64,000 bases of DNA from Tetrahymena elliotti 4EA (Eukaryota > Ciliophora > Oligohymenophorea > Hymenostomatida > Tetrahymenidae). Made by a program: the position numbers and the translations under genes. Below the pieces are notes generated by a model. That model was not told where the DNA came from. It was given only the letters and a program-made list of their open reading frames with translations, and did no database searches. Where the stretch lies: positions 499,920-563,919 of the forward strand of contig JH720299.1 of NCBI GenBank assembly GCA_000231825.2, given 5' to 3'. Position 1 is the stretch's first letter; every line of letters begins with the position of its first letter. Positions 6,589-29,265 of this stretch are shown here, piece after piece.

Positions 6589-9500
6589 TCAATGACTAAG
6601 ATATAGAGTTTTGATATCGTTTTTTCCAAAGGGTGTACGACATTTTGGACAAGTTCTTTGACGAAGACTCATTTATTTATCGATGCACTCTCTACAGAAG
6701 GGATGCATACATTTTTATAAGATTGTATCTTTGAAGTTTTATCCACAACTGCACTGGAGTAGGAGACGCATGTTTTATATTTTTTCTTTAAGTGAAGCAA
6801 CTTCTGTAGAAGTATTTTTACTTTCACTATTATCTAGGAATTCGTAGGCATTTTGTAATTTTTATTGGATTTTTTCATGATTGGCAATGAGTTCATTATA
6901 TTATTCAGTAACATCTCCAAACTTCTTTGTGAGTAGATCAAGTTTTTATTAAGTATCAAGGAGTAGCACTGTGTTTTCTTCAAGCTATGATTGGATAAGT
7001 TGCTTTTATTGGTTAACTTCTTCAATAGCATTTGATAAATTACTGTTTTAAAGAAGCAATTACTTGTTTTAATCTTCTAAATTCTCAATCAAATTTTTAG
7101 TATTATCTTTCTTTTGTTGATCAGCAACAACTAATATGGAATAGGATTGTTTTTCCTTTTAGAATTGCATTTAAATTTCAAGGTTTTTATATTCCAATCC
7201 TTGTTCTCTTTCTTGACTCAATTTAAGCTCTTGATTTACTTAATCACATCTTGCCTTCATTTAGTTAAATGATTTATCTAAATTTTCATATTCCTTCCAA
7301 ATTTCATCTTGATTTGCTTGCTGCTTTTTCTTTTCTTATTCATTTTGCTTTAATTGCTTCTGCAAATATGAAATTTTATCTTCTCTATTCTTAACATAAT
7401 CAATCAGTTCTCTGAATTTTTTAATTTAGTCTTAGTTAATTTATCCAGAGCTGCACATGTCGTTCATTATTTTTTCTAAAAATTTAATTGTGTCTTTGTG
7501 GATTGGATACTTAAATATTTTATCTTCAGCATAGCTTTCACCAGTGAATCCAATTTAGCTTTACAAATAGTTTATTTGTTGTTCTTTTTCATTCAACTTT
7601 GCTGATAAATCGCCATTAGATTTTTACAATAAAGCAATTTATTCATTCAATTACTGTTTTTTCAACTCTAATTCTTTATTATGTTCTCTTTCTATTGTCA
7701 GACATTCACTTGCCTTCTCTAATTAATCTTCTAAAGGCTAAGTGTATTTCTTATAATTAAAGTGCTATGTTAGATTCTCTCTCATGGCATCTCCTAACTA
7801 AGTCTTGTAAACTCCTTCTCTTGCTTCATGTAATTATTTCTAAAGAGTATCTTTCTCTTCCTTAAATTTAGTTAAAACTTCCTACATTTCTCTGAAGCGC
7901 TGCTTTTCAATATCACTTATTTGTTATTTAGCTTCTTTCAATTAGTTTCTCATTTAAATAGTAACCTTCAGCAATTCCTCAGTTTAAGCTGCCAATGACT
8001 AGTAAGCACCCGATCTAAAGAACTTGTCTTCCATATTCTTTAAATCAATTTCTCTTTCTCTCATATATTTTTCTAATTCAGATTTCTCTAAAACTAGTTA
8101 TTCATTACGCTTCTATAAGATTTACAATTTTTCTGCAATAGGCAATCTTAACTTACCATCGCAAAGCTCATCTTAAATAGTTGTGCTTGCCTAATTTATC
8201 AAAGAAGGTTGCATAACTAGTGATTACTATACCTATATCGACTCTTATTTTTTCAAAGAAGGCATGCTGCTTATTCCTAGACTAGCTGAACCATTTAATT
8301 CTAAGTTTTAGCTATTACTCTTATTCTCTTCAGCAGCTGTAAAAGCATTAGTATTAACAGCATCATTACCACTTGTATTCATTAATTAGCTAGATGATAC
8401 TCCATTTTAATTTACTTATTAAGATTCCTATTGAGTCAATTATAATCCTTAAGAACCTTATACTCCATTTGATGTATTAGAAACATTGCCATTTTGAGTA
8501 CTTGAAGCCAAAGATTAAGAAAATGTATTGGGAATAACAGATGAAGGTGAAGTATTAATAATTGTTTAAGTAGCAATTAATTTTTATTATGTTTCCAAAA
8601 GCTACCTTAATGTTTCTTCATACTTCTGACTAAAATACTCAGTTTAGTAACCTCCACAAATACATTCATATCCTTCTCTCTCTTCATTTTTATTCTCCTA
8701 TGAACCATTATTATTAGCATTTGCATTGTTATTCTATTGCTGATCTTCTATTTCCATTTGATTTTATTACTGCTAACCAACTTGATTGGCATTAGATTAG
8801 CTTTGATTCTCTTTGCCAGAATTATTTTAACTAGAATTCACTAAAGAGTTGGCATTGTTCTAAATTATTTTTTGAAGAATTTAATTAGGATCTTGACCTA
8901 CTTTTGCAGTGATTGAAGTGACGCAGTAATCCATTTTTTAGCGAATTCTAAGAGAAAGTCTTTCTGAAATTTCTCTCTCCTCATTGTATTTTTAAAGAAG
9001 TTCTTCATATTGTTTACTTTAATTACCAAAATAGTTCATTATGAATTCCTTTTCTGTGTCTGCCAAGGGCACAGGCTTTGAAAGAAAAGTTTCCAATTCT
9101 TTAATCTTAGTCTAGAGTTAACTATTCTCTCTGTATAGTCTACGCATAGTGTCATTTGCATCATTATTTTAGGCTAAACTCTTAACTGCATCATTCATTC
9201 TTTAACCGTATGTTGCACAATCAATGGCTACATCTGCATAGATATTTTCGAAATTCTTTAAAAAGTTCTCAACTCTTTGCTTAGTTATCTTTTGCAAATC
9301 CTACAAAGCAGCAGCATTAGTCTATGCTCTCTATTTGCTAACAGCATTAGTATTACTGGCATTCTAAGCAGGAGTACTGCTGTTATTATTATTATTAGCT
9401 AAATTATTAGGAATCTAAACTTAAGCAGCGTCTTTTGTAGTCTTTTCCATGCATTCCTTTAGTTTATTGACAATTTAAACCAACTCACCCATGCTATCGA

Positions 9501-9795
9501 ATAATTATTTGAATTTGGATGTTTACCTCTCATTGTTATCTTATTTCTTTACTAACAAATTCAGACGTTCTAACTTCCCCAGAAAATTCTTCCAACCAGC
9601 AAAGTAAGAAGCGAAAAAGAATTCATAGACTTCACAAATTGCCCTATAACTGCTCTCATTTAGTTTCAATTAAGAAATAATCCTCTTCTAATGATCTAAC
9701 CTATTTCCCAAAGCAGTATTTGCAAATTACAATATCAAAACATCATTTTTAGGATGCTTAAAATTCTCTTCATCCTTTCCCTTAACCTTCTTCAT
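6589..9795 (-). CDS. Bre1/RNF20-type RING E3 ubiquitin ligase (histone H2B), 1068 aa
   Basis: A single uninterrupted frame of 1069 codons including TGA, with no intron. Bre1 proteins monoubiquitinate histone H2B with the E2 Rad6 and act in chromatin during transcription. The N-terminus (NDVLILQFANTALGNRL) resembles the Bre1 start. The body is long, glutamine-rich and coiled-coil-like, with many heptad-type Leu/Lys/Glu stretches, and there is a low-complexity Asn/Ser linker in the first half. The last ~50 residues form the diagnostic RING: KCMHPFCRECI, then RQRTCPKCRTPFGKND, followed by a short tail ending LYLSH. The RQR-CPKC-FG-ND signature is specific for Bre1 among RINGs. One oddity is that the first metal-ligand pair reads QCSCGQ, a CxC rather than the usual CxxC. 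The start is the first ATG after AT-rich upstream DNA. Confidence 0.92.
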
Positions 9796-11670
9796 TCTAA
9801 TAATAATTCCAATTACAAATTATGTTCCTTAATCAAGCAGTTGTGTATTTTACAAATAATCGATTTATAACAGATTGAGAGATTGATAAATAAATATAGA
9901 TAGATTGTCTTCCTCCTATTTTATTTGTTTATTTGGTTTTGCACTAATAATAACTTTCTTCCTCTTAATTCTAAAGATTTGATTTGATTTGTTTATTTTC
10001 TTTTAAAATAATTAATTAATTAATTAATTAATCAATATATAAAATCTTGTCTAATTATTACTTCCTCTGATTTATTCCTTTCCCTCACTTTTTTTTTATT
10101 ATTCAAATTTAATATCCTCATTCATCTTCTCATTCATTTCTCGCCTAAAACAAAATCCTAATTCATAAATCTATTCATATTTCCATCAATCTTCATTCAT
10201 TCTTTCTTTTCCATTCTAAATGCAAGCCAAAATCTCATTAATTTTATTTAGTTATTCATCAATTAATTCTTCCCTTCATTTGCTTTAAGTGTATTAAGCC
10301 TATCACAAAACTTCCTTTTGACAACTAAATAATGGCATTCAAATGCTCTCTCTGTTTACCTTTTTCCCTTTCTTTGCAAAGTTAATTTATTTTATCCAAT
10401 TTTAGTTTTACTGAGAAAATAAGCTAAAACCTATTTTAAATTCTATTTTAGGATAATCTCCTCTTTCTGAATAATTAATTCCATTTCTGATGAAGCCAGT
10501 CTATATTTTCTTAATAAATAAATAAACAATCCTTCTTTATATTTGTTTAGAATTCTTCCAATTAACATTTAATAAAAAAAAGTTCTAGCAAATATTTAAA
10601 ATTCAACTTTCTCGAAACGCTTTAATCCTCTTTAAAACACACCCAACTATCTCATCAACATAATAATCTATTCATAAAATATACATTTCCATTCAAATTA
10701 TTTTAATATAATTCTTTATTTATATTCTTTTATCTTCATACTATTGCTTAAAAGTAATTTTGATACATAAGTAAATGTATTAATTAATATAAAATAATGT
10801 TTATTAATTTATTTAAATTCTATACTTTTATTTAATTTGCATTTTATTAACTTCAAATAAATTTTGCGCAAGTAAATGATAATAATTTGCTTTGTTTTTA
10901 AATTAAATTTCGATCCAATCTACTTTAAAATTATTAAACACACTATATAAATTTATTCGTTTATTTTCTGCTCAAGATAGATACATATTAGATTTCTTTC
11001 ACATTTTTCTTTTACCTGTGTATCTTTGATAACTAAACAGAAGCCATTAATTCCTTTATTTTCTATTTGCATCAATAAATTAAAGCTTCATTTCTTTAAT
11101 TTAAAACTTTGATAATTTTATAGAAGTTATTAATTAAATCGATTTTAAATTATTAAAATTTCATAGCTTTATTTTAAAACTGTTTTATTTTTTAAATATT
11201 TAATTAAAAAATTTTTAAAAATGTAAATAAATTAGAAAACTCATTGAAAAGTAAGTAATTTATGATTTAAATAAAATTATGTATGATTTATGTTTTTAAC
11301 ATAAACATTTTATATTATTATGCTTTTCAAAAACTTTTTTTAATATAAAGAAATATTTAACAATAAATTTATCAGTTGAAGAAGGTGCAGGGAATGGAAT
11401 GATCAAAATCAAATTTCAGCTTTTTTTTGAATGTTCAAAAGTTGATTTGGTTTAAAGATATTTGAATTATGAATCAATAAATCAGAGTTGATTTGCATTA
11501 AATTTTTTGAAAATACAAACAAAAAATATTAATTTGAATTAGTTTTCAACCAAGAGTTACTCTACCTACTAAGAATATAGGAGCCTTTAATAATAATCAA
11601 AGCTAAAAAATAAAAAATCAACAACAACACAACACAAAGCTAATTCAAATATTTTTTATTTAATTTTATC
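9796..11670. other. Intergenic between divergent genes, no gene seen
   Basis: Nearly 1.9 kb between the starts of the minus-strand Bre1 gene and the plus-strand gene at 11671, so it should hold both promoters. It is AT-rich with a TTAA/TTAATTAA microsatellite at about 10008-10032. I found no convincing coding frame, RNA gene or clear operator-like element. Confidence 0.6.
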
Positions 11671-14600
11671 ATGCTTAACATTTTCTTAGAGTTGTGGAAA
11701 GCGCAGCAGGAAAATAGGGTTATTATTCCTGAGCTTTACTTTCCTGATACATTTATTTTAGATGAAAATCATGATTTTATATGGGTCTTTCGCTCTAAAC
11801 AGGAAGGCAAAATTCTCAGAAAAAAGAAATAGAATTCTTCTGTTGAATGTATTGTCAAGAGTTTGGTTGGATAGAACTTAAATTTGTCTATTGACTATTC
11901 TTCAATTGATTCTACCTAACAAAATATTCAATCTCTTAACAATAATTATCAATCTATTTCTATTCAAGCTGAAACACCTTTTGCTACTTTCAGCAGATTG
12001 AATGATTAGGGGGAAATCGAAATTCAACATTTTAATTCTGAATAAATAAAAAAATTCTTTGGTGAAGTAGAATACTAGAATGCTCTTCCAAGAGATTCAA
12101 TATTTCTTTAGAGATATCTTAGAGTTGATTAAAATGAAATACATAACCACTTTATAAAGGTAGTTTATAATAGCAATTTTATACAAATTGAGAAGAGACG
12201 CAATTGCTTTTTTTGGTAAAATTTAACTGAAAATTCAAATAAACCAAAAGATCGTGAATACTATAATTGTCTTATTTCTTATGAAGGACCTGAATAGTTT
12301 ACAGAAGTTGAGAAAATAAATGAATACACTGCAAATCAATTGAAATACATTGTCAAACAAATTTGTATTCAACTTGAGTCGATTCACATGAAAGAAAGAG
12401 GAAAAGTTAAATAAATTTCTCTTATTTTCAAGAAAATCAATGACATCATTTATTTACTCCATTGCAATGAAATTTCTTTTGAGAGGGAGTAACACATTCC
12501 CAAGTTATGGAGAATGTCTTTTAAAAATCCATTTGTAGTTCCTCTTCATATTAGATGTGCAGCAAAACCATTATTGCCTCCTTAAAATAATTAATTAGGA
12601 AATAAATCTATGTTGCTAGCTAACAACGTAAGCAAGACTCTATCTAATTAATAAAACAACACAAAAAATGTATCATAATTAAATGGCAGTAATGATTCTA
12701 ATTTAAAGCTAAGACATATGGTGCTGAATAAGTAATAATTAGATAATTCTACTTTAGACGAGAAATATCATTCTATTGATTAAAAATATTAAATGTGTAA
12801 TTCTTGTGGACAAGGTTCATAGCAATAACTTCAAGATATAATGAAAAATAAACTATTACGAATCAGAATTAAGAGAGGAGTTAGAGAGAATTTTAATGGT
12901 TTGCGTCCTTTGTATGACAGTATGCAAAAATAAGAAAAAGCTTTATTTGATAAATACACAACAGTGAAAGTATGTTAATTGTGTTTTGAAGCATATTAAG
13001 AAATATAAAAAGAAGATGAATCATAATAATAATAAAATTTAGTTAATTAAAGTTATGGTTATTCAGTTTAAGATTAAACTAAAAAAGCTAAAAAGAGATA
13101 AATTACTATTCATAAAGCAAGATCAAAGAGTTTTAATTTGGTATCTATTGATTAAACGAATGAACACAGCACATCTTTAATAAATGGTTAATTTTTAACT
13201 CCGATCGAGAACAGTTCTTTAAAAAGAAGAAAAAGTGTTAATTAATGCGATTAATCTGATTAAGAAGAAGAATAATCTAATGATTTTTTTGATGAATCAA
13301 TGCTAAAAAATATAAATGATTAATCAATGATAAATAAAGATTAATCGTTTTCATACAGATTGAATGATAATTCATTTGATTTGAAATAATTTAATAAATC
13401 TTTTGAATAAAAAAACTCCATTCAAAATACTTTAAGAGAAAAATCAATTATGCAAAGAGCCTAGCTAGTTTAATCAAGATAAAGCGATTTAAATGAAGAG
13501 AGTGCATATAATTTTAATAGAAGGCATCATTCTTTCTCAAAAGCTTAATAAATAAATTCACAGTATTATCAATTAAATAAAAATCTTTAATACAAATTCA
13601 AAGAGCTAAGAAGTAAAAGCACTTAAAGGTCTGCTAATATATCAAATATTCTTCCATAATTTTCAGAATTATAAAATGAAGATAGCAGCATATTAAACGA
13701 TATGGATTTCATATAAAAAGCTCATAATATGAGTTCAATTACTCCAATAGCTGCTGCTGATTAGAAAACTATCATTGAAGCTTTAAATTTGCTTTAAGAA
13801 ACAAGTAATAAAAATTTAGAAACTAAAAATTTAAATAATAAAAAAATATCTAGACTATATCCTATATCTGTTGGCAGATAAAGACCTGTTATTAACCCTA
13901 ATTTAAAATCTCAATATTAAGTTATTATTTAGAATTCAAGTATCACTCCAATCAGCAATAAAAATGTAAATGATCAAAGCACAATTAGTATAGGTAATAA
14001 TAAAAATAAAATGAATAATGCAAGCTCTCGTAATGTCATCAGTGACTACTTTTAATAATTAGAAGACAGCAATTTTATGGCTAATTAAATTAATAACAAT
14101 AATAATTATGATGATGCTTTCTTGAAAAAATTCTATTAACAGTAAGCTATTGAAAAAGATAAAAGATAAAGTGAATAATTGGTTGAAATAAGCAACGTAA
14201 ATAATAGCAAGGATTATATTAGTATTAACCATATAGCTAATAATTAATGTCTAAAAAGTGAGGATATTCTTAATAAAATGAGAGATATTAATAACTCTAA
14301 GGAAATGATCTCAGATTCTCATGAAAAAATAATGTCTGATTACAATTCTATTTACAAAGATTAAAAATATCAAGTTCAACTTTTAAAGCAAAAAAGTAAT
14401 TTTGGAAAGGTGAATATGGCTTATGATAATAATGATAATAACAACGACAATGTATAATCTACAAATAATATAGTAAACAGAAGCAGAACTTCATCAACAG
14501 CATCCAAATCGACAAACAATTCTTCACTCACTCAAATCTAGCAAAGTAATATATTTTTTTTTTTTGGTGTTTAAAAAAAAAATCATTTAAAAAAACAAAA

Positions 14601-15121
14601 TAATATTTTTAATTTGATAATTAATATTTTGTTAAATAGGAAATAGCAGTGTTGATCTAGAAGGTAGATTGTTGGCTAATATTAGGTATTTAGAAAAGTA
14701 GATGCAAGATTAAGAAGTACAAAATAAAACTAGTAATAACTAATTGATTTATGATAACTAAAAAGAAAATAATTATACTGTTGCAAATTCAAACAAAAAT
14801 TTGAATAATTTAGGCAGTATTAAATAATCAGCTAATTAAAAGTTTTAATTACCACCTAAACCAGTGATTTCTCAAAAATTAATTACTAAACAGAGTAATG
14901 TGAAAATACCAAATACTTCTAATGAATTATCTGAATAGCAGTCTTAACAAATACTGAAAAGTATTTAAGATAATAAACAAATTCTTTAGAATAGAAAGAG
15001 TTCTTCTAACTAATTAGATATCTAATAATCCTCTAAATCTTTGCAAAGAAACCAAAAAAATAATCTTTAGGGATAAATAGATAAAATATAAACATCATAA
15101 AGTATCAGAAAAATCATATGA
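11671..15121 (+). CDS. Hypothetical protein, 1118 aa, possible zinc-binding CxxC pairs
   Basis: Two exons, 11671-14545 and 14640-15121, joined in phase 1. Together they give 1119 codons including TGA. The first ~300 residues look like an ordered domain (for example IPELYFPDTF, WVFRSKQEGK and VVPLHIRCAAKPLLPP). Two cysteine pairs follow, CNSCG at about residue 375 and CQLC at about residue 434, separated by a basic stretch (RIRIKRGVRENFNG). These could bind a metal together. The rest is glutamine/asparagine/serine-rich low-complexity sequence typical of ciliate proteins, with short coiled-coil-like stretches near the end. I do not recognise the family; the N-terminal domain is the part to search with. 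It runs toward the virus-like element, whose edge lies about 470 bp downstream. Confidence 0.85.
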
Positions 15122-15589: not shown

Positions 15590-15824
15590 CAACTACAATT
15601 ATGAGATAGCAGATTTATTGGATTATAGTACTAGACTTAGATAAATTATTGTTCAAGATGAAAGGTTTAAAACGAAGCAAGAGAGAGTTAAATCAAAACA
15701 GGGAGGTAGGATCAATAATACTAAGATCAATCCATATGATGATCAATTGATAGAAGAAGAAATAGAGACTGAAAGTATAGATTTAGATGATGAGGAAATA
15801 GATGTTGAGCGTTACTTCTTTTGA
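15590..15824 (+). pseudogene. Element gene 1: C-terminal fragment, acidic protein
   Basis: An open frame ending at TGA 15822-15824 encodes about 75 residues: a mixed-charge helix-like part (DERFKTKQERVKSKQGG) followed by a strongly acidic end (LIEEEIETESIDLDDEEIDVE). No ATG exists in this frame inside the element; the frame simply runs back into AT-rich flanking DNA. I therefore read it as the remaining 3' end of a gene cut at the element's left edge. The next element gene starts 37 bp downstream. Function unknown. Confidence 0.45.
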
Positions 15825-15861
15825 TAAGCTCAATCTATGAAGAGATCAACTTTGGCTAATT

Positions 15862-16443
15862 ATGCAAAATTAACATAATCTTTATAGTCCTCTAAACACA
15901 TCTTCCTCTAGATGTAGTATGAGCTGCTTTGAGATGAGATATTAGACAATATCCTTCTTCTATGAGCTTGTATTTTCTGTTACTATGATTGGTTAGTCTC
16001 AGCTATAAGAAGTTCTCATCTTGACAGATTAGTTAGAGCATTGTTCTATCTAATAGTCTGACTTTACATTTCAATCTAGTCTCTCTTATCTTTCTAATGT
16101 CTTCATGTTTAGTATTTATTATTATGGATATGGAGAAGATATTACAAGCATTGATACATACTCTTGCCCATAATCAATATTGGCAGAACAATCTATTTAA
16201 TATTCTGGAAGTTCATCAGCTGGTGTATAGAAGTTTGCATAGTATACTAACAGATACTAATAGTTATTACTACTATAGGCTTTACCAAATGATTCAATAG
16301 TATATTACAGGTTAGAGGTGTTGTAACCCACATACTTTGTTTTGACAAGTGTTCTTCTGAAGCTTAATTCGTATTCCATTTTTCTTATTTTGTTACTTTT
16401 ATAGTTCTCTTATAGTTTTATTATTCTACAATAGTCTTCATGA
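15862..16443 (+). CDS. Element gene 2: hypothetical protein, 193 aa
   Basis: An uninterrupted frame of 194 codons from ATG 15862 to TGA 16441-16443. The middle is a Ser/Gln/Tyr-rich segment (for example YYGYGEDITSIDTYSCPQS). Near the end is a strongly hydrophobic stretch (SIFLILLLLQFSYSFIIL) that could be a membrane anchor. It ends only 10 bp before the stop of the convergent minus-strand gene, a spacing that favours this frame over the two other partly open frames here. No family recognised. Moderate confidence because all three plus frames are fairly open across 15830-16300. Confidence 0.45.
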
Positions 16444-16453
16444 TTCATATCAT

Positions 16454-16804
16454 TCATTTTTTCAAACCTCTCCCTACGTCAAATAGTATTGTAATTATAA
16501 TAATATTGAAGTTATACACTCTCAATCTCTAACATAACAATTCTATAATCAAATTGTTTATCAGTTCGATATAGGTAATCATTTGAGATTATCTTTTAAA
16601 ATCTATCTCTATATAATCTCTTTTTATATTGGGATCTCCTTTTATATTATTCTTTTCAAATAGGACATAAGCTACTATAGCAACCAATGATACATCTTCT
16701 TTATAGAACCTATCACAACATCTCCTCATATCATCCAATATTCTCTTCCTCTTCTCTTTATCTAGATACTGAGTATGATCCAAGAACTCTTTGATCTTTT
16801 CCAT
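16454..16804 (-). CDS. Element gene 3: small hypothetical protein, 116 aa
   Basis: The frame from ATG 16804 to TGA at 16454 gives 117 codons. The N-terminal 70 residues are hydrophilic and helical-looking (MEKIKEFLDHTQYLDKEKRK), followed by RRCCDRFYKEDVSLVAIVAYVL. The last ~45 residues become hydrophobic. It faces the gene starting at 16820 with only 15 bp between start codons, so the two must share a very short promoter. Its 3' end is 10 bp from the end of element gene 2. No family recognised. Confidence 0.55.
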
Positions 16805-16819
16805 GATTTTTTTTGTTAC

Positions 16820-18123
16820 ATGTTTTTACTCTTATAGCTCCAATTGAATAGCACATAGAATACAGTATTGTAAGAATACTTACCAGAGCCATATATCACT
16901 CTTCGAGACTTTACTCTCATTCTGTTCGAATAAATATATGCGCATAACTATGTCTTAGGATTGACTTTATATAACAACTTAACAAGACTCATGAACAAAA
17001 TCACTCTACAAGAGTCCATATTCTATTCATATCTACAATAGATCTTAGAATCATGTCAATAGAGTATTATGCTGAGCATCTAAGAGAACTATTATTATGA
17101 AGTATACTAGAACTATCAAGGAAACAATTATCCTACCTTAGAATAATACTTATAGAATAGTCTCTTACCTCAAATTACATAGAGGAAGCTTGATGCAGGA
17201 TATTTAAGATCTCTGATGATAAGGACAATGAATCAAAGTTAATAACATAGTCTCTATATTAAAAGCAATTTGAGCAATAAATACAGTAATAGACACAACC
17301 TCTCCAGAATTTGAATTAGTATTAGAATCAGTATTAGAATCAATAATAGATGCAACGTACATAATATCAGACATAACAGCAGGTATAATAGACAATGTAG
17401 TAACATACATAATAGATACAGTAAAAGTAACCTGTATAACAATAGTATGTATAACAATAGATGCAATAGTCTGTATAATAATAATCTGTATAAAAATACG
17501 ATGAAGGATTGACACAGAGAATCAATACAGTACATAATAATGATACTCTAGACAATGATCCTTCCTATGATACTCCTCTTACCATCGATCCTCTTGACCC
17601 AAATAATAATACTTCTATTCCTAACAATGCTTCTGCTCCTATTAGTAATAGCATTGCAATACCATAATTAACTCCTGAGCAATAAGCCAGATTCCTTTAA
17701 CTGAAGAAATAAGAAGAAGAGAAACAGATATTAAAAGAACAATTCATCCCCGATGAAATGACAATAGAATACACTGATGAGAATGGTAATGTCATATAAA
17801 CTCAAGCAGCCAGTACACCATATTAGCCCAGAGCAGAGACTAGATAAACTATATAGAAAGCAGGTTAGACAGTTAATCCAGAGTTTGAAAGGTTGAAGGA
17901 GATTGCTTTGATGTAATAAGCTCAAGGAATAACATAATTTTAACGAAGAACATATGATGTATAATTATCTGGAGGCATAGATAAGAATGCTGCTATGGAT
18001 AGATAACACACTCTTCAATTATTTGGACTATAGAGTTTGGAAGAGTAAGAATAAACCGAGTTTCCTATAAGCGAATAAGAAGCAGAGGAAACAGTGAGAC
18101 TATAGAAAACTGGCAGGACTTGA
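16820..18123 (+). pseudogene. Element gene 4: glutamine-rich protein, one frameshift
   Basis: The frame from ATG 16820 is open to about 17200 (start MFLLLQLQLNSTQN; later ENYYYEVYQNYQGNN and YLRSLMIRT), then coding continues in another frame to TGA 18121-18123. The total length is 3n+2, which proves a frame change, most likely in 17195-17300. The middle (about 17280-17500) is a glutamine-rich tract in which most Gln codons are TAA/TAG. The C-terminal part is ordinary hydrophilic sequence (QLTPEQQARFLQLKKQ; LQLFGLQSLEEQEQTEFP). About 434 codons in total. The frameshift could be decay, an assembly error or programmed +1 recoding. Function unknown; a virion or DNA-associated structural role would be a guess. 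Confidence 0.55.
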
Positions 18124-18316
18124 TGTTTGTAATTAAGATAATTTACTTCTGATCCGAAGTTTTAAAACGAAATAACTCTATGGTTAACTACAATTTATAG
18201 TAAACTTTAAAGCTTGACTTTTCAGTCAAACCCTAAATTCGAACTTTTATCTTTTACTATATTTTTATTAAAATAAACACTCTTTTATTATCTTTTTATG
18301 GGATTACTCAGACTCT

Positions 18317-19421
18317 TCAGTCTAAGTATATTTTGATCATAGCAATGATTTCATCTTGGTCAAAGGTCTCAATGTCAATACCTTTGAATATAAGATTAAA
18401 CAATCTTTGCTCTTCTTTTGCATCCTTTTCCAAACCAACAACTCTTTGTCTGAGTTGCTGTCTTACTATGGATGCGCTGAAAGAAGTGAGATCAACAAGT
18501 TAGACTTTTTTGTTTTAGTCTTTGCCACCCAACATATCTTCACATGAGATAATATTTTATCTTTACTGTTACTTCTTTTATTCTAACAATTCCTTCTTGA
18601 TTGTGGATTGGGATTTGCCAGAATTGATGGTAACTTTCACTGAGTGCTGATTTTTTTATTGGACCATTTCTTTCTTTTAGTAAGAATTCTAAACCTTAGG
18701 TTTTTATTGCTTAGAGTTTTATCTCTAAGGTTTTTATTCCTTTGGTTAGATTTTTCTTACGAATGTGTTGCCTCTAGGACCCTATTGTTCCTCTCTCTTT
18801 TATTGCTTTCTTAAGAGGACGAGAGGAATACGATTAACTTTGGGCTAGCTCAAAGGCTTTTCCAAAATTTAATTGTCTCTATTTTTGTAGCTACTGGTGT
18901 GCTACTCTAACCATCTCTTGTAATTTTTTGAGATATATTCGTCTGCCTTCACGTTGTTGGCGAATATATCGTATGTGAAATCGCTAATGGTTACAGTTAA
19001 GTAACCATGTTGGTTGATCAAAGCTTTCTAGTTGTTCACATAAAGAGAGAGCTTTTTGACCAGTGACTCGTGATGTTTGCACTATAATGTTGAAGTGATC
19101 AAAGACTTAACTTAGGACCTCATAAGCCTCTTCAAATGAACAGAACTAGTTCTTTTCTAAATGCTCGCAATATTATTCTCTTGTTATTGCTAAGTCATTA
19201 TTAGAGCTTTAGAAAGCATTGCTGAGCTCTCTGGTGAAATAAAGTACATACTACTCGAAGAGGTTATAAATGTACTCAGGTCCATATACCTGCTAGACAT
19301 TCAAGTCTTCAATCAACTATTGGAAAAAGTAGTTGATGGCATAGCAGTTTGGATATGCATCGGCAATGGTAGCAAAGACTTGCTAGAAGAAATCTTCGAA
19401 ACAAATCAATAGAAAGAACAT
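18317..19421 (-). pseudogene. Element gene 5: hypothetical protein, one frameshift
   Basis: Read from ATG 19421 (MFFLLICFEDFFQQVF) the frame is natural through about 19080 (YAINYFFQQLIEDLNV; GPEYIYNLFEQYVLYFTREL). Coding then moves to a second frame (HHESLVKKLSLYVNNQKAL; YLTVTISDFTYDIFANNVK; YISKNYKRWLEQHTSS) to TGA at 18317. The span is 3n+1 nt, so one frame change is certain. The second half turns into a Lys/Gln-rich basic region before a final ordered stretch. It lies 38 bp downstream of the RING gene on the same strand and could be co-transcribed with it. No family recognised; a structural or capsid-associated protein cannot be excluded or supported by eye. Confidence 0.5.
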
Positions 19422-19459
19422 AGAGATAAAAATAGCCCTGAGTATAGATTGATGTTATC

Positions 19460-20227
19460 TCAAGAGAAGTACTATTAGTCTCTACAATAAGGACATCTAT
19501 CTACCTTTTCTATACAGCCCGGACACATGATTTAATTACAACATTCTAGTCTCACAGTTTCCAAGTCTTCAACACAACATATAAAACTTAAGTCTTCATC
19601 TTTTTGATATTCTTTGGATTAAGACAGCTTGCTCATAGTCTTATTGAGATAATTTATTAGAGTAACTAATTAATAGACTAAGTATAGAATCATAGCACTT
19701 GCAATTAATAATACATATTGTGTGATAAACTAAATGAAAGCATCTTTAACAGTTGACATTCCATTCTTGTAGCAACATATAATGAAGAATACTAATTGGA
19801 TAATGGTTTATCTAATTGCAAGTTAATCAACATCATCATAGACTTATATGTTGTACTTTATGTAGTTAAAGGGTAGTATTTTGTTATATGGTTCAAATTT
19901 GGTTTTGTTATTATAGCATCTATACAACTATCTATAGTATAAAACTATGAGATTATAGATATGTTTAAGATAGACAACATAGAAGTAACATGCTGTCACA
20001 ATACCAAATACGATCTTTACCATGATGGTTATATGTAGATGTAGCTCTATTTTGTTTAGCTGATTACTTTACTATGTGCTCTCCTAGATACTCTTCAATG
20101 TATCTTCTTCTATTTCCTCTTTATAACCTTTGAAGATTTCAGAGGTATTATATGATAGACTATTGTACTCTATCAATAGTCTTACTACGAAGCAGGTAAG
20201 TTTAACCAAAAAGTGTTTGTTTATCAT
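19460..20227 (-). CDS. Element gene 6: multi-pass membrane protein with C-terminal RING finger, 255 aa
   Basis: An intact frame of 256 codons. Hydrophobic segments lie near residues 5-21, 65-97, 132-146 and 160-183, so three or four membrane spans. The C-terminal ~40 residues form a RING-like finger: ICCVEDLETVRLECC, then MCPGCIEKVDRCPYC, giving C-C, C-C, C-x2-C and C-x2-C ligands with no histidine in the usual place. RING fingers recruit E2 enzymes, so the inferred activity is ubiquitin ligation at a membrane. Compact RING E3s are a recurrent acquisition of large DNA viruses, used there to steer host ubiquitin. The gene is divergent from the exonuclease gene with 99 bp between starts. Intactness, unlike its neighbours, is notable. 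A second in-frame ATG at 20023 would give a shorter form that keeps most spans and the RING. Confidence 0.75.
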
Positions 20228-20326
20228 TGATTATATTTCGTTTAGTTTATCTGTTTAACATCTTAGAGATCTTTATAGATTTAACTTTTCACTTTTATCT
20301 AGATCAATATAATTAAATTAGATAGT
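20228..20326. promoter_or_regulatory. Divergent promoter region of RING and exonuclease genes
   Basis: The 99 bp between the start codons of two diverging element genes must carry both promoters if either is expressed. It is pyrimidine-rich on the plus strand. I see no recognisable binding site, so this call rests on gene geometry alone. Confidence 0.35.
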
Positions 20327-21603
20327 ATGATACTTTACTATAAAAAATCAGATATAGAACAAGTAACTCAGATATTTGATCTGGTAGAGAAACTTTACTT
20401 AAAGAACATATCAAATCTCAACAAGTTACTCTTTGTAAGTGTCGACTTTGAGTTTTCAAGGTTGGATAATAGTATAGGATTAGTGTAACTCAAATTCGAT
20501 CAAATGGGTTTATATGATGATCAGTTGAAATAGTTCAATGAACTTGTACAGGATAAAGTTATTATTATAGAGTTGAGAAAAGTATCTAATTAGACTAAAG
20601 GTTAGAACTTATCACTGGAACATATGAAGTAAGTATAGATTTTATAAGAGAGGTTCTTATTCTAGTTTCTCTTTAATTGTCAAGATAATGTCTATAAGAT
20701 AGCTCAAGGGCCTTTTTCTGGTGATGTACCTAATCTGAATAAGAAATATGGTAAGTAACCTATTAGTCTAAGCGCAAGAGATTAGGATAAAGTACTATTC
20801 AATCCAGTTAGATATTTTGTGAAGAACATGATAGATATCAACTTATTCTATAATATACTATAGAAGCTCAACGGTGTAAGCATAGGTGGTGCTCTGTATG
20901 GTTTCTATTCATTCTTCAATGTTCTATCTAAAGAAAAGATCAGAGAGATAGAAACTTTGGGTTAAAGAGGTATGAATGCTAGGAGAGAATTGGGTGATAT
21001 TAGTGTTCTGTCTAATAATGACTATTTAATGTACTGTTACTATGATGTTAGGTATCTCTTCGAATGCCTTCTTCACTAGCGCAATGAATAAAAGCTCACT
21101 GGTTAAGAGTTCATGTTCTTTTGTTCCTATATCTCATTGATCTCAACCTTGAGATTATTTCCCTTGAATAGATAGTAAATTAAGATAAGACCAAAGTAGT
21201 TAAAAAGGATCCTGTTGCAAAACCCTTTAATCCCTTCAAGTATAGTTTTAAACCTTAGCTAAGAGGAGGTAAGGATATCAAGATAACTTTCGAAGAGACT
21301 ATAAGATTCTTTAATATACCTTCCAATAAAGAGACAACGAAGTTCTCTATCAAAGAGACTATAGAAAGTGGTATGTTTGATCTAGAGTAATAGAAGAAGA
21401 TGAAGGCTGGAGGCAACATGAAAAATATAATGTAAAAAAAAGAAGATAAGGGTCTGACTCTTATCATATAGCATCTATTAGAAATTAAACTATCACAGAG
21501 TCAATAGAATAAAGTCAATGAGATCATTGATAAGATGTCAACTAATAGAATACACATCATAAGAAAGTAATAATAGCTCTTGTATTCTATTATCTAACTA
21601 TGA
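20327..21603 (+). pseudogene. Element gene 7: DEDD-family 3'-5' exonuclease, one frameshift
   Basis: The first frame encodes an RNase D/DnaQ-like exonuclease domain. Exo I is SVDFEFSR (D40, E42). Exo II is likely KIAQGPFSGDVPNL (D133). Exo III is YCYYDVRYL, in which Y236 and D240 fit the DEDDy pattern Y-x3-D. The catalytic residues expected of a metal-dependent exonuclease are therefore present. Around 21110-21190 coding switches frame and continues (KDPVAKPFNPFKYSF; FEETIRFFNIPSNKETT) to TGA 21601-21603; the total span is 3n+2 nt. The shift lies after the exonuclease motifs, so a truncated protein would still hold the domain. Likely role: DNA or RNA end trimming during replication or repair of the element. 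Family comparison is by motif only. Confidence 0.7.
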
Positions 21604-21745
21604 TAGAGCATGAGGATATTGAGTAGTTAGTTATCTGTCAAATAGATTAGAGTAAGACTTTGCCTTGATAACCAAACACATACTCTACTATAATTTATTG
21701 TCTATGAAATGGTTACAAGGGCTTGTATAGATTTCTATATGAAGA

Positions 21746-23960
21746 TCATTGGTATAATAGTTAGCCCTTGAACATAGTACCTAGCTACTGGAAATGTATT
21801 TAATTAATGAACTCTTCAAAAGTGTCATTGGATAAATAGAGTTGGAGATATTATTCTGCTATATGTATCTAAATTTCAAAGTCCTAGCTTACCACATTAT
21901 AAGACTCTCTTAGTCCTAGTATACTCTATATCTCCTACATCCTATACTGTATATGACCCAATAGATCTTTTCTATTCAGAGGAAAGGGCAATAATTCATG
22001 ATTAGTAGGTACTATCAGATATAAATTATTGTCTGAATTTACTTCAAGCTCTATTAGAAATGATATGAGAACATCTTTATAATAACCTCTATGGTTCTTC
22101 TATTAGTTCTTCTATCGATATTACTATTGATATTACTATTGATACTTTATGAATACTGACAATTCTTGATCTTGAAGATACTCAATCAGACTTTTGAACA
22201 ATTCTTCAAACTCTGTTATAGAATAGCTGTTAAGATTCTTTCCATGGAAAATGGATGTTATGCTATTCTCTTCAGATAATATATTCTTCTTTCTCTTATT
22301 TTGTTTTCTCTCTTCATTCTTTATATTCTTTGTATACTTCTTTCCTATGGTCTATGTATTAGTTGTCAAGGTCTTAGATAGAGATTCTTTCTTTACCTTG
22401 GCGACTTTTCTAGCCTTCTTAGCTTTTTAACTTCCAAGCTTCTCTTTGGGTATAAGTGTTTCATCAAGATCGAATTTAATCTCAAAGGCGTTACGATCAC
22501 TAATACTCTCATAGACCTATTAATTCTGATACTTGCCTAATTGAACTATGATAGCTTAGAAGAAAGATCTTGGTTTCTGGTTTATGTACTCTTGGTTATA
22601 ATAGTATTCAAACTCTTCTGCTTCCTTCGAAGTAGATATGATAGCAGTGTTATCAAATAGAAGATTAAGATCTCTATTATTCCTCTCAAGAGTTAGTAAT
22701 TGATCTAGATTTTAGAGTTATAGCTCTTGTATGCTTTTAAATATATAGATGTTCTCTCTGTGGTCCTGTTCTCTTTTTTCTTAGTTCTAGTCTCTATCTC
22801 TATTCACTATTAGAAAGCCTAATTCACCTAGGAAATTAGTCAAGAAGTCTTTCTATGTGCTCATAGTGTTAACATCTTTAAACACAAAGGAATTGAGAGC
22901 GTAGACTATATGATGATGATTAAGATTCTACTTCTAATAGGAGTCTAACTAGTTTAATACTTCTTGGATGATCTAGCTATAGGTGTATTATTGACTCTTC
23001 TTGAATATCTTTCTTATACAGCTCTTATACTCTGTGAGTTCTGTTATCTCTTTATCCTTGAAGAATATCTATGACTCTAAATCTTTATCTTTAATCTTTT
23101 AAGAGTTATAAGACATCTTCTTGCTATTACAAAACTCTTTGTTAAGAGTAGTACTTGAGCATTTGAAATCAGTGAAATCATATTCAATGGGACATAGATT
23201 AGGATCAGAACGACTTAGATAGATCTCTTTACAGTCTTTATAGAGTTCTATTAGCTTCTTATTGATATTCAAATCATAGAAGAATGGACAATCAATAGCA
23301 TTAATCTTTAGTAGCTTGTGTACTCTGGTCATCTCTATGTACTTCTGCTCACTCTTCTTTATCATCTTTTCTTCTAATGAGAGATTATACTACTCACCCT
23401 TTTCTATAGCCTATTACCAAGTCTGTTCAGAAGCAGAGTATCTATAGAGATGCACTACTTACTCCGGTTGTTTTAATATCACTTGTTTATTCTTATGTTG
23501 ACAATATCTTATCACACGACCATTGATCTGATTAATCTTGCTCATATTGAAAGAGTTATCGAATATATGACATTGACCTACATTGCTAAAAGTTATACCT
23601 TCATTAGTTACTTTACTTCCTAATAATATCTTGATGACCTTACCATCTATATTTGGTATAGAGTTATAATGTGAGTAGATATATTACTTTACCTCCTATA
23701 ACTCCTTCTTGGCATCTTGTTGCATAGTCTTCCTATCCTATGCTGATAACTCACTATCTTAACCTTCTTCACTTCCTCTTCTCGCTTCTTATCTTTAACC
23801 TAATCATAACACCACTTATAGAAGCTTTATACTACACATTAAACTATTCTTGAATGGATCAAGATTTAGGAACTTGAATTTAAAGTACTCTTACTTGAAG
23901 TTCCTGAACTTATTTATGTACCATGAGTTATCCTTGTTGGGAATAAAAATGAAATATTAT
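21746..23960 (-). pseudogene. Element gene 8: SF2 helicase C-terminal half with long tail, in-frame TGA, N-terminus missing
   Basis: Helicase motif V (KILLGSKVTNEGITFSNVG) and motif VI (QINGRVIRYCQH, a perfect QxxGRxxR) lie in the 23510-23640 stretch. Their spacing and the HIFDNSFNMSKINQ linker resemble the D6/D11-type SF2 helicases of nucleocytoplasmic large DNA viruses (the poxvirus NPH-I/early transcription factor group). After the helicase comes a long unrecognised C-terminal region to the TGA at 21746, containing a basic stretch near 22400 (QKAKKARKVAKVKKE). Upstream, the same frame continues to about 23960 but holds one TGA at 23804-23806. From that TGA to the end the frame is uninterrupted (687 codons). 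Motifs I-III are absent, because the gene stops at the element's right edge. The likely role was unwinding or transcription for the element. Confidence 0.7.
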
Positions 23961-24227: not shown

Positions 24228-27200
24228 TCAGTTATTATGGCTAATATAGAATTAAGGCTAATATGAAGAATTGCTATTTCCTTTTTTATTTAACTCAACA
24301 ACTTCAAATATGTTTCTATTTTGAATGGTAATTGATTTAGATTTTGAGTTCTTCTTTTTTTTGTTTGTTATTTTAAAAGGAGAAAGGACTCCTTTAGTAA
24401 AATTATCAAAGCTTTAGTTTTGTGTTTGACTGATATCATTTTCCAAAAAATTAGACTATTTTTTATCTTTTTAAATACTAGAATGAATTTAGCTATCAGC
24501 AAGGTGTTTTGAATTTGTTGAACCAAAATTTATTTCAGGTAAAGTCGTTTTCTAAAAGAATAATTTATCAAATAGTTTACTTTTGTGTGTTTTATTTTAC
24601 TAATCTAAAATTTTGATTGGAGTATGCAAGTGTTCAGTATTTCTAACTAAATCTTGTTTTAAGCTTAGATTGAAGGGAGGTCTTTTTTCTAAAATCACTT
24701 TTTGTTTTTATGTAGACAATTGAGTACAAGAGCTTATTGATTTTTAAAGATATACAGAATTAAATTATTCTAAATTGTTTTGCGAAGAGTTTTTTTGTTG
24801 TCTCTTCATTTAAATTTTCTTTTTTCCTTCAGCTTATGTAATTTTTGAGAGCATTAAATTCTTTTTAGTTGGAAAAGTTGGCATTTCGTTGTTACTAAAT
24901 AAATTTTTATTAATTTTTTACAAGTTTTGCACTGAAGAAAATTAATTAAGTAGAATTTTATTATCATTTGAAGAAGATTTGAAAATACTATTAATTTTTT
25001 CAACATCAGATACTTATGTTGTGCATTTAGAATCTATAAAGGGTGTTGTTTGATTGGTTAAAAACCTTTAATTTTTATCCATAGAAATATCTGTAGGGAT
25101 ATCAGCAAGAGTTCTTAATTAAATGTGATTTTTTGAATTATTCAATCCATTCTTTTTTGGAATACTTTAACTGGCTGATCTTAATTAAATTAGTACGGGA
25201 TTCATGTATTTGTTACTGATTTTAGGAATAGTGCGATAATAGCTCTAAACATAAAGATTTCTTGTCATTTTTTCTTATTCTTAATTTTATGCAATTTCAC
25301 TAACATCTTCTAAAATAACCAATGTTCTTTTAGATTTAGCTCTATCACTGTCTAAATCTTGCTAATCTTTTGGGATATTACTTAGAGTTTGTCTAAGAAT
25401 GCTTTTAATTAAATAAAAAATAATGGTTTTAGATTAGTTCTATTGATCTATTTACACACTTAAGATTTAAAGTAAAAAAAAATTAATTCTTTATAATTTT
25501 AGTCTGATGAAGAAAGAAAAAATCAAGTGTAACATGATGAGATTCAGTGGTATCTAAATACTTTACCCTTAACGCATAAAAAAATAAAACTTATTTTACT
25601 AAAAAGCAACTCAAAATTGATATTTTAAAAAGGTTGTCTTTTTTTAAGCTCATCTTAAACTTCTAGCTTGAGGGAATAGCCAAAAAACATATCTCTCTTT
25701 TATCATAAAAGTAATCCAAAATTAATTAATTATAGTGTTTTTTTGATTGGAAAAGATTTCTTCTCATAGCTCAAGGAAAAAAGTGTAAGTAAATAACTTG
25801 ACTTTTGACTGAAAAATTTAATTAAATTAAAAAATTTACTTGTTTCCAACGCTTTTAACAAATTCGTTGTTAATGTTTCCAATTTTAGTTTCTTATCTCA
25901 ACTGATCTATAATATTGTCTTCTACAATGATGTTTTATGTGTTGTTTTTATTCTTAGGCTATTCTACCTTTTCGAGTAAGGTTTTCTTTTTTGCTGGATA
26001 TTAAGGAGTATTCGAACCACTGACTTAATTAGAATTATTGGATCCATTGTTATTATTGTTAATACCATTGTTTAATGCTTGCTGAGAAGTAACAGATATG
26101 CCTGATGAAGTATTTGATAGTTTAGGAGGAGCGGCTTGCTTTTCTTATTCGAGATTTTATTAAGGATTTTATGGAACTTCGTTCGTATTTAAATTAGACT
26201 ATTAATTAAACTAATCCGAGTTAGAATTTGGATGATTTTAAAATGAACTCTTTTTGAAAGGTGATGAATTGTTTTACAATAGTTTTAAAGCAAGTAATGA
26301 ATTTTATTCACCATTACTGTAAACAACAAGACTATTTCTTGCAAATATGGTAGGATGCGTCTTTTTATTTTTTTGTTCATTGGTAACACTATGGGGACTT
26401 TCATTTTAGCTGCTTGATGATTGTGAAAGGATTTATCCTCCTTCTCTATTTCTTATCATGTTAAGACTAGATAATTTTTATAGATTTTCTGTGATATCTT
26501 TTTAGGAGCTTTTTTGCTATTACAGTTTGAGTTTTTCAGTTGATTTTGGAGATATTTTAAATGTGCTTTAACGAGTGAACTTTGTTGGTGAAGCCTTCTT
26601 CTCTCCAAACAAAAAGTGGTTATTGTTATTTGTACGAATTGATAATTTAGAGCGAAAGAACTTGTTAATCTTGCTAACATTACTTATAGTCTTTTAGAAT
26701 GCTCTTCTGTACATCATTTTGATCACCTAAGTAGGCTTAAACTTAGGAATCAATTTATCTAATTTTGCTTCTTTTGAAGTCTTTGCTCCACAATTATGAC
26801 AGCAGCAGCTGTTTTTTCTAATCATTTTATGAGCAGGCATTTCATCGCCCTGCTTCGCTTTATCCAAAAATGTAACAAGATCTCTAAATTCACCTGTTTC
26901 TTCTCCATTGAAGCTCAACAAGCGACGTTTACGATTATTTGAAGGATTCGATTCCACATAATATGCTTTCTTTGTTTTAAATTAAGTAAATGGATTTGTT
27001 AAGCTCTCCTTTATCATTGAATTCTATGAATAGTTATTTGAATTTGTAGGCAACTTCTTGAAAAATAACTGCTTTATTATATTTTGATTGCCATTCTTAT
27101 TATTTTAATTAGCATTAACAGGTCTCTTTGAAGGAGATGGATCATCATCATTTTATTCTCTTAACTTATGATCTTAAGAAGCAGAAGACCCTCTTGAACT

Positions 27201-27440
27201 TTTATTAGAATCTGATCTTAAAGACACATTTTCCGAAGGACTTGAAGACGACTAAGAACCCAAAATAGACTGCGACTCTTTGGAGTTAATAATTAAATGA
27301 GAAGTAATTGGATTTATTGTACCTTGGCTCAAGCCTCCGTCACACCTAGGTGATCCCTGAGACTAATTATCTAACTACTTTTAAATGTCATCAGAAGAAA
27401 AATTGAGCTTTTCGTATCTGTTAGGAACTTCACGAATCAT
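24228..27440 (-). CDS. Hypothetical low-complexity protein, 924 aa, two exons
   Basis: Exons 27440-25840 and 25401-24228 (minus strand) join in phase 2 and give 925 codons including TGA. Most of the protein is Ser/Asn/Gln-rich and likely disordered. One compact, better-ordered stretch lies near residues 160-250: RKRRLLSFNGEETGEFRDL, then HKMIRKNSCCCHNCGAKTS, with a CCCxxC cysteine cluster and basic residues downstream (MMYRRAFQKTISNVSK). This cluster could bind a metal. No family recognised. The C-terminal exon has several Lys/Ser runs. The 3' end faces the virus-like element about 270 bp away. Confidence 0.8.
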
Positions 27441-29265
27441 CTCTTAAATGGAAGCAAAGTTAAGTAATTATATTATGTTAGAATCTATATATTTATTTAT
27501 TTGTTCGATTATTGGTTTGTTTGCTTATTTGTTTGTTTGTTTTACTATTGAATTAAATTAATTAAGATTTGTGAAAAAGTGATAATAAAAGTAAGCAATT
27601 TATGAAAAGCAAATTATTATTTTTGTTGAGCTGACTGACTTTCTTTCTTGTTCTATTTTAATAAAGAGTTAATAATATTGCATTAATTTTTAATATTATG
27701 TTCCTACCAAACGCAGCTAATTAGTATACATATTTATACTATTTTTATATCTTTTTTTGTATAGAAAGATGATAATTAATTATCTTTATCATCAGTCAAT
27801 CCTATTCATTCAGTGATATTTTTATTGAAAATCCTTTTTCATATTCTTTTATTGATTTTTATCCAATAATTTTTTGCTTTTACATCTCATCAAAAAATAA
27901 AATTTTATCAAATATCAACCCACCAAAGTTATAAATTTATAAACTGCTCTAAATTTAATTGACTATAATCTAATGTAACTCAATTGTTTTATTCATTCAT
28001 TTCTTATTTAAATTGTTTTTTATCTTGCAATTTTTTGATTTTACATCAAATAGTTCATAAACCACTCTTATTTAAATTGACTAATATCTAATTTAACTCA
28101 ATTGTTTTATTCATTAATTTATTTGTTTACTTTTTAAATTGATTTTTATCCAATAATATTTTGATTGCATCATTTTAATACAGATATAATTTTAATAGAC
28201 TAATTAATATCTATTGTAATTCAAATATTTTATTCATTAATTTATTTCATTTTTATCCAGTAAATTTTTGATTTTTCAATTCACTCAAATAAATTTTAAT
28301 GATCTTTTTTTAGAATGAATGAATTTTAAAAACAAATTTTAATAGAATATGCATTTTTATTCCTTAAAAAATTTAAATTATTTTTAATCAGTGCTTTCTT
28401 TGGGTTTTATATGAATTTAATTTTTTAAACCCTTTATTCTAAAATGAATGAATTATGTTTACAAATTTTATTAGAATAAACATTTTTAATTTATAAATTA
28501 AGAATATTAACACCTAAAAGTTACAAATTATAATAATCGATCAAATATCTAATGTAACTAAATTGTTTTCTTCACTATTTTATTTGTAATATTGCAAGAT
28601 AATTCTTTAACAAAAGATAATCAAATTGAAACAAAATATAACAATTATTTTTTTAGCAAATAATTCTTAAATAATAAAATAACAAACTAAGCAAACAATC
28701 AAACAAAATATTTGTGAATCAGAAAAAATTATTTTAAAATAAAACATGTCAAACTAACTTAAAGCTTATATTTAATTTTCTAAGTTACCATTCATTTAGA
28801 GATATAAATAAACACTTAAGAATTAATAATTATTCTAAATTTTTTCCATGAATCAATATTTTATTTTAAGATCAACTAATCTTAGCATTTTTTTTAATCT
28901 TTTTTAGAATTTTTAGAGAAAATTTCCTATCATGCTGTTAGAACTATTTTTTGTTTAAAAGGAAAATGTATTTATTGTTTATTATGTTTCAAGTAATTAG
29001 TAAATTTTAATTATTTTATAAATAATTTACTTTAAATTTATAGATAAATATTTTAGTTAAGCAAAATTCACTAGGCCCTACTATAAATTTTATAATCCTT
29101 AATTACCTAAATAGTTAGAACTTTAAAAAAATTAATATTCATAAGTACGAATAATAAAAATATTTTTTATTTTTTATTACGAAAAATTAAGATTTAATGA
29201 AGAAAGGAAAGGAATCTTTTATATATTAGATAAAAAAGGAGGGATCATTGAAGCACCAAGCTTAT
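27441..29265. other. Intergenic, AT-rich with imperfect repeats, no gene seen
   Basis: About 1.8 kb upstream of the minus-strand gene at 24228-27440 and downstream of the LRR gene at 29266. It contains imperfect tandem repeats (listed separately) and related short duplicates around 28310-28500 (two copies of AATGAATGAATT). No coding frame or RNA gene is supported. Confidence 0.6.
27950..28310. repeat. Imperfect tandem repeat, about 118-bp unit, three copies
   Basis: Units starting near 27953, 28071 and 28190 share AATTGACTATAATCTAATGT-like starts, a TTATTCATTAATTTATTT run and a TTTTTATCCAATAA-like end. Divergence between copies is considerable, so this is an old array. A related fragment occurs near 28540. 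Confidence 0.6.

Follow-up and report, generated by a model that had tools for sequence, protein, structure and literature searches.

The window analysed here, 64,000 nucleotides of the Tetrahymena elliotti 4EA genome (bases 499920-563919 of the 1.96-Mb contig JH720299.1, hereafter C7, in an assembly of 89.95 Mb and 134 contigs), contains an island of foreign composition that is probably, though far from certainly, the decayed remainder of a large DNA virus of which a piece became endogenous. Its helicase relates this element to the Nucleocytoviricota, the nucleocytoplasmic large DNA viruses (NCLDV), and no close relatives of its lineage came to light in the collections searched. Copies of the element occur at three loci with different flanks, most of the divergence between copies accumulated under selection, the ciliate genetic code was kept under that selection, and the element carries an NCLDV-type helicase. 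A first-pass annotation made from the letters of the window had offered two origins, a truncated relative of the Tlr/Maverick elements or an integrated large-DNA-virus fragment, perhaps of a new lineage. The second is supported by the helicase and by three loci that diverged under purifying selection; the idea of a new lineage also gains support, the other genes searched having no confirmed relatives in those collections.

Results

Helicase of NCLDV type

The helicase is the one gene of the element in the window to exceed a curated Pfam cut-off. It is the C-terminal half of a superfamily 2 (SF2) protein of the D6/D11-like kind, and this half alone matched NPH-I at E 0.0085. Seven protein relatives were found at E<=1e-3, the best at 2e-34 to a protein of 1139 amino acids (aa), and six of the seven are about 1100 aa long. 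When a family profile was searched, 7990 candidates were scored and 1340 of them were relatives at E<=1e-10; the best 120 of these 1340 lie on contigs of up to 719,641 bases, and one is named 'viral metagenome'. The best-scoring relative shares 35% identity with the window protein over 307 aa. In the PDB, the relative P0003 matched poxvirus VETFS (8e-13) and NPH-I (5e-8). In BFVD, a library of viral structures, the best named match of P0003 was an SNF2-like helicase of Hyperionvirus, with 39% and 56% identity in two pieces, followed by ChoanoV1 of the Mimiviridae and, lower, by Aureococcus anophagefferens virus (AaV), Pithovirus and D1133L of African swine fever virus (ASFV). The P0003 model behind this last search was poor (predicted local distance difference test score, pLDDT, of 49), and we hence place weight on identity and names, not on the fold.

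With the giant-virus D6/D11-like SF2 helicases (Hyperionvirus; poxvirus VETFS and NPH-I) the window protein shares the Helicase_C core together with the adjoining C-terminal region, some 300-400 aa at 29-35% identity to a large family, whereas it differs from them in lacking the N-terminal half and in being written in ciliate code. A D6/D11-like SF2 helicase, one of the features by which Nucleocytoviricota are recognised, is thus present. The missing N-terminal half was not found anywhere in the genome, where a search with P0003 matched residues 548-922 only.

Three loci with different flanks

A search for other copies revealed two more loci, on the contigs C88 and C70 of the same genome. The C88 copy, at about 123.7k to 135.4k, has 83-92% DNA identity to the window element, lies between other flanks and breaks off inside the helicase. 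It adds the membrane protein p185, the N-terminus of p569 and three genes beyond p205, namely a 205-aa GIY-YIG-like protein, p292, and p536 with three transmembrane (TM)-like segments. The GIY-YIG reading of C88:132635-133252 was made by eye, and Pfam gave no such match; Pfam searches of two p536 pieces and one edge frame likewise gave nothing above cut-off. The third copy, C70:386.1-391.8k, is older and more diverged and has a guanine-cytosine (GC) content of 0.250. It matches p185, p483, p190, p205 and the GIY-YIG-like gene with the order kept, and a frame without significant match stands in the place expected of p569; p230 was not seen at C70. The exonuclease-like protein and the helicase were matched at C7 and C88 only, and p292 was found at C88 only. 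Across the loci, the recovered gene order spans about 14 kb.

The flanks of the loci do not match one another beyond AT-rich noise of about 57-69% identity, and next to the C88 and C70 copies lie genes that belong to cellular families (cNMP-binding, TSO1-like CXC). The host gene that adjoins the oldest copy, C70:392876-396145 (-), has two TSO1-like CXC domains. At the right edge of the C88 copy (C88:135332-135401, -) and the left edge of the C70 copy (C70:386128-386197, +) we found a 70-bp sequence identical at 55 of 70 positions (79%). It is inverted relative to the gene order and reads inward in both copies, its best match elsewhere in the compared stretches being 39/70. Present at two of the six edges, this sequence could be a terminal inverted repeat, of a large or a compact genome alike.

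Divergence under purifying selection

Between C7 and C88, the ratio of nonsynonymous to synonymous substitution rates (dN/dS) was 0.07-0.18 in seven of eight segments (about 0.13), with dS between 0.12 and 0.77. The remaining segment, p190a, was excluded as misaligned (DNA identity 0.46, dN/dS 0.46, five TGA). At the aligned window codons of the seven segments there was no TGA stop; of 25 gaps in these segments, leaving out the left-edge gap, 13 were not multiples of three. C70 and C88 are much further apart: in all four segments compared, the proportion of synonymous differences (pS) was 0.65-0.91, that of nonsynonymous differences (pN) 0.18-0.34, and 48-72% of residues were identical, with synonymous sites near or at saturation. 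Nearly all substitutions between C7 and C88 thus arose under purifying selection, and the frame-breaking indels and deletions were added to them, most simply after integration. The low dN/dS, the conserved proteins of C70 and C88 and the retention of TAA and TAG as glutamine codons together imply that decay set in only after the copies had diverged as working genomes in ciliate code, and the several-fold variation of dS from gene to gene fits mosaic viral strains better than a single duplication.

Glutamine codons kept between copies

TAA and TAG make up 65% of the glutamine codons in the window element (six frames), 75% in the C88 copy (eight frames) and 71% in the flanks (three frames), so that the element uses the code of its host, as the first-pass annotation had noted. 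Where a C7/C88 codon pair has TAA or TAG (TAR) on at least one side, glutamine stands on both in 137 of 155 cases (105 TAR/TAR, 32 TAR/CAR); among C70/C88 pairs involving glutamine, 24 of 76 have TAR on both sides. Since TAR was kept as glutamine between the copies, the code must have been in use during selection, and the host in which the source replicated therefore had this code. There is a precedent in the polinton-like viruses endogenised in Streblomastix strix, whose viral genes are reported to use TAA/TAG as glutamine like their host (PMC10120064). Those viruses were found via their capsid protein, whereas here no capsid gene was found and the helicase is NCLDV-type.

The island and its chromosomal setting

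Across 15599-23959 of the window the GC content is 0.309, whereas equal-length host windows average 0.227 (standard deviation 0.013, maximum 0.259; n=119, overlapping windows drawn from the window and from the C88 and C70 stretches). The sharp drop in AT content read from the letters is therefore real. None of the 200-bp bins of the element falls below GC 0.22, the host mean being 45% of bins. The left edge, at about 15599, is where homology to C88 begins, and the right edge, at about 23960, is a GC step. A GC of about 0.30 is not unique to the element: the host RING-protein gene at 6589-10137 also reaches it in 1-kb windows, so that GC alone is no marker of viral DNA here. The product of this reverse-strand gene is a coiled-coil protein of 1182 aa that looks BRE1-like by eye; its C3HC4 RING finger (23 bits in Pfam against a cut-off of 21) is C-terminal.

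The island lies between the convergent AT-rich open frames 11671-15121 (+) and 24228-27731 (-); the three flanking frames of the window that were scanned gave no significant Pfam match. The far end of C7 is a TTGGGG telomere repeat, and no such repeat was seen at its other end or at either end of C88. From telomere repeats at one end, an assembly of 90 Mb and frames that read in code 6 we infer a macronuclear assembly; the contig of the element is probably a macronuclear chromosome.

Searches for hallmark genes and relatives

No Pfam family of integrase, pPolB or other replicase, ATPase, capsid or protease passed in the open reading frames (ORFs) scanned in the window and the C88 copy, and part of the original gene set may be lost; the absence of polymerase, integrase, ATPase and capsid from the window's genes, already remarked from the letters, thus stands in these frames. 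Genome searches for capsid (PF04451) and VLTF3 gave no match, but carry little weight because no control genome matched either. Scans of viral contigs with the window helicase, P0001, two helicase alignments and the p185 and p483 alignments gave no confirmed relative, and neither did a genome-contig scan with p185. The helicase family, with its more than 1000 relatives in the protein database, also went unmatched in the viral contigs, so that these scans are weak evidence of absence. Among the titles and abstract openings listed by literature searches in a limited library, none described giant-virus-like insertions in the genome of a living or fossil-bearing ciliate.

Gene remnants of the window element

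What had been described as eight compact genes are eight remnants in ciliate code and in mixed orientations (Table 1), but they are mostly broken: genes are cut at both edges, and indels and deletions disrupt several others. The three functions originally named fared differently. The SF2 helicase half is above its Pfam cut-off, while the RING finger is weaker (Pfam zf-C3HC4_3 at E 6e-4, below cut-off; XIAP RING in the PDB at E 0.003). The exonuclease label rests on a reading by eye of the DEDDy-like motifs D-x-E, GD and Y-x3-D. For this protein, Pfam, NCBIfam, the PDB and the protein database gave no exonuclease match, and 7567 candidates from a database of 5.8 billion predicted proteins, in which standard-code calling would break ciliate-code relatives, held no relative; its single-sequence structure model (pLDDT 34) was of no use. 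Pfam matches below cut-off were set aside, among them that of p190 to hAT-like RNase-H and that of the exonuclease-like protein to AbiGi.

Table 1. Features of the element within the window
Feature	Position	Strand	Details
p205 remnant	15599..15824	+	Last ~75 aa of a 205-aa frame, the N-terminus being removed by left element edge; C88:131771-132388 matched over 75 aa (96% aa identity); junction alignment
p230 remnant, indel-broken	15830..16457	-	87-93% aa identity to C88:131073-131765, two frames; gaps 7, 67, 17, 8
p190, 163-aa open frame, unknown family	16454..16945	-	Counterparts in both C88 and C70; no Pfam match reaches cut-off
p483 remnant, Q-rich middle, unknown	16991..18123	+	246-bp deletion near 17095; aligns to C88:129158-130609 (483 aa) and piecewise to C70
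p569 remnant, frameshifted	18317..19396	-	N-terminal ~197 aa gone; residues 198-569 of C88:127244-128953 matched in two pieces
Deletion point	19397..19398	.	~1.7 kb of C88 (p569 N-terminus, p185 membrane protein) absent between RING gene and p569; blastn blocks, window against C88
RING-finger membrane protein, 255-aa open frame	19460..20227	-	C-terminal C3HC4 RING, two TM-like segments (hydropathy); frame shifted in C88
Exonuclease-like protein (526-aa ORF in C88)	20327..21742	+	78% identity over alignment with C88; frame departs from that of C88 just after 21163
Helicase, C-terminal half of ~1100-aa SF2 D6/D11-like protein	21746..23725	-	659-aa frame; Helicase_C 27.8 bits (cut-off 23.5); N-terminal half removed by right edge
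Last element sequence before right edge (GC step)	23726..23960	-	No clear coding match

In PHROGs and NCBIfam nothing was convincing, the best match being a weak one of the C88 form of p230 to phrog_12603 (unknown function; E 9e-4). At a guess, p483 might be a virion protein. Its C88 form (C88:129158-130609, -) carries in the Q-rich middle a short tandem repeat, PRTQQM/PLTQQM, that varies between copies; six short tandem arrays were found in all. GG dipeptides number 10 in 11 element proteins against 3.8 expected, a value that 18 of 5000 shuffles reach, though this count was made post hoc and is a lead only. The GG sites lie in the C88 forms of p569, p483, p205, p292, p536 and the exonuclease-like protein, about half of them as [ML]xGG, which resembles the processing sites of adenain-type viral proteases.

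Discussion

The kinship of the helicase, together with a distinct gene order of about 14 kb in which no hallmark was found, was counted in favour of a large virus as the source. Several observations weigh against this. The same stretch is covered at all three loci, which is unexpected for random pieces of a large genome; the loci were, however, found by homology to that very stretch. The helicase sits on a very long branch without a settled place in a tree that holds no named NCLDV sequences, and could therefore be a captured gene. The D5 primase-helicase and the A32 packaging ATPase gave no match in the genome, whereas three and two of 14 control genomes, respectively, gave matches, although a fragment need not hold these genes. 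Finally, ten of the twelve gene families found no convincing family match in Pfam, NCBIfam or PHROGs.

Part of this evidence would suit a smaller source, a mobile element, virus-like and compact at about 15-17 kb, that has terminal inverted repeats and carries a helicase captured from a giant virus; it might need a helper, as transpovirons or virophages do. We regard this as possible but doubtful. The loci would then overlap simply because the element is small, all three falling within one gene order of about 14 kb, the inverted 70-bp sequence at C88 and C70 would mark its ends, and the lack of any D5 or A32 match in the genome, where controls did give matches, also speaks for it. Yet the edge sequence stands at two of six edges only, and the overlap of the loci is partly a matter of ascertainment. 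Moreover, compact viruses of about 15-17 kb normally carry capsid, ATPase, polymerase, integrase or protease families, and no such family was found in the scanned ORFs. Transpovirons, small linear elements of about 7 kb with a helicase, could serve as a model for a compact element. They differ in that the gene order recovered here spans about 14 kb and its helicase is SF2, their own being a Tlr1-like superfamily 1 (SF1) helicase (PMC11071308). As to a truncated Tlr, Maverick/Polinton or polinton-like virus, the first origin suggested for the island, we consider it very improbable. Like the Tlr elements of Tetrahymena thermophila, the island is a virus-like multi-gene element in a ciliate genome, its genes are compact and in host code, its host belongs to a group with known Tlr elements, and a candidate terminal repeat is present. 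Tlr elements are germline elements that encode an SF1 helicase, an RVE integrase, an FtsK-like ATPase and jelly-roll capsid proteins (PMC4028283). In contrast, the only helicase of the window is SF2, and the integrase, ATPase and capsid were not found in the scanned ORFs, in which part may be lost; neither was pPolB. One end of its contig is telomeric, and the element is thus probably macronuclear. Nor did the scan of these ORFs find the replicase, integrase, ATPase, double jelly-roll capsid or protease of Polintons, polinton-like viruses and virophages.

The three loci could also have arisen from one integration that was followed by segmental duplication in the host genome and independent decay. 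The gene order common to the loci would agree with this, but the flanks match only at the level of AT-rich noise (about 57-69% identity), and the divergence is strongly synonymous (dN/dS about 0.13) and gene-dependent in level (dS 0.12-0.77), unlike the neutral decay of duplicates, which makes a duplication improbable. Low dN/dS between copies and two open window frames (RING, p190) might even suggest ordinary or domesticated host genes. This reading is the least credible, given the truncation at both edges, the frameshifts in the C7 and C88 copies, an exonuclease-like protein without relative among 7567 candidates and the foreign composition; in the searches made, no element protein matched an ordinary ciliate gene.

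For the favoured reading, a decayed fragment of a large DNA virus, we infer the following course. A ciliate virus with a linear DNA genome, in which TAA and TAG encode glutamine, would have infected the cell, and pieces of its large genome, perhaps terminal ones, would have been joined into chromosome breaks by end-joining. This would have happened separately at three or more sites rather than once with subsequent duplication, and the pieces would have been retained in the macronucleus. Once integrated they would have been neutral, losing function through small frameshifting indels, larger deletions and truncation at the edges.

More broadly, the source may represent a lineage of DNA viruses that has so far gone unrecognised, distinct both from Tlr/Polinton and from every giant-virus group sequenced. 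It would have long replicated in ciliates with a reassigned code, synonymous sites between its endogenous copies being near or at saturation, and would leave fragments in their macronuclear chromosomes. We put this forward tentatively; such a virus may itself be compact, bounded by terminal inverted repeats, and have a capsid set not known so far. To our knowledge, native DNA viruses of Tetrahymena-like ciliates are hardly known beyond Tlr. Three fossil loci whose genes were long selected in ciliate code would mean that such viruses exist or have existed, and they raise the question why programmed DNA elimination left copies in a genome that is probably macronuclear. Viruses of ciliates may thus be findable by translation with code 6, where standard gene calling would miss them.

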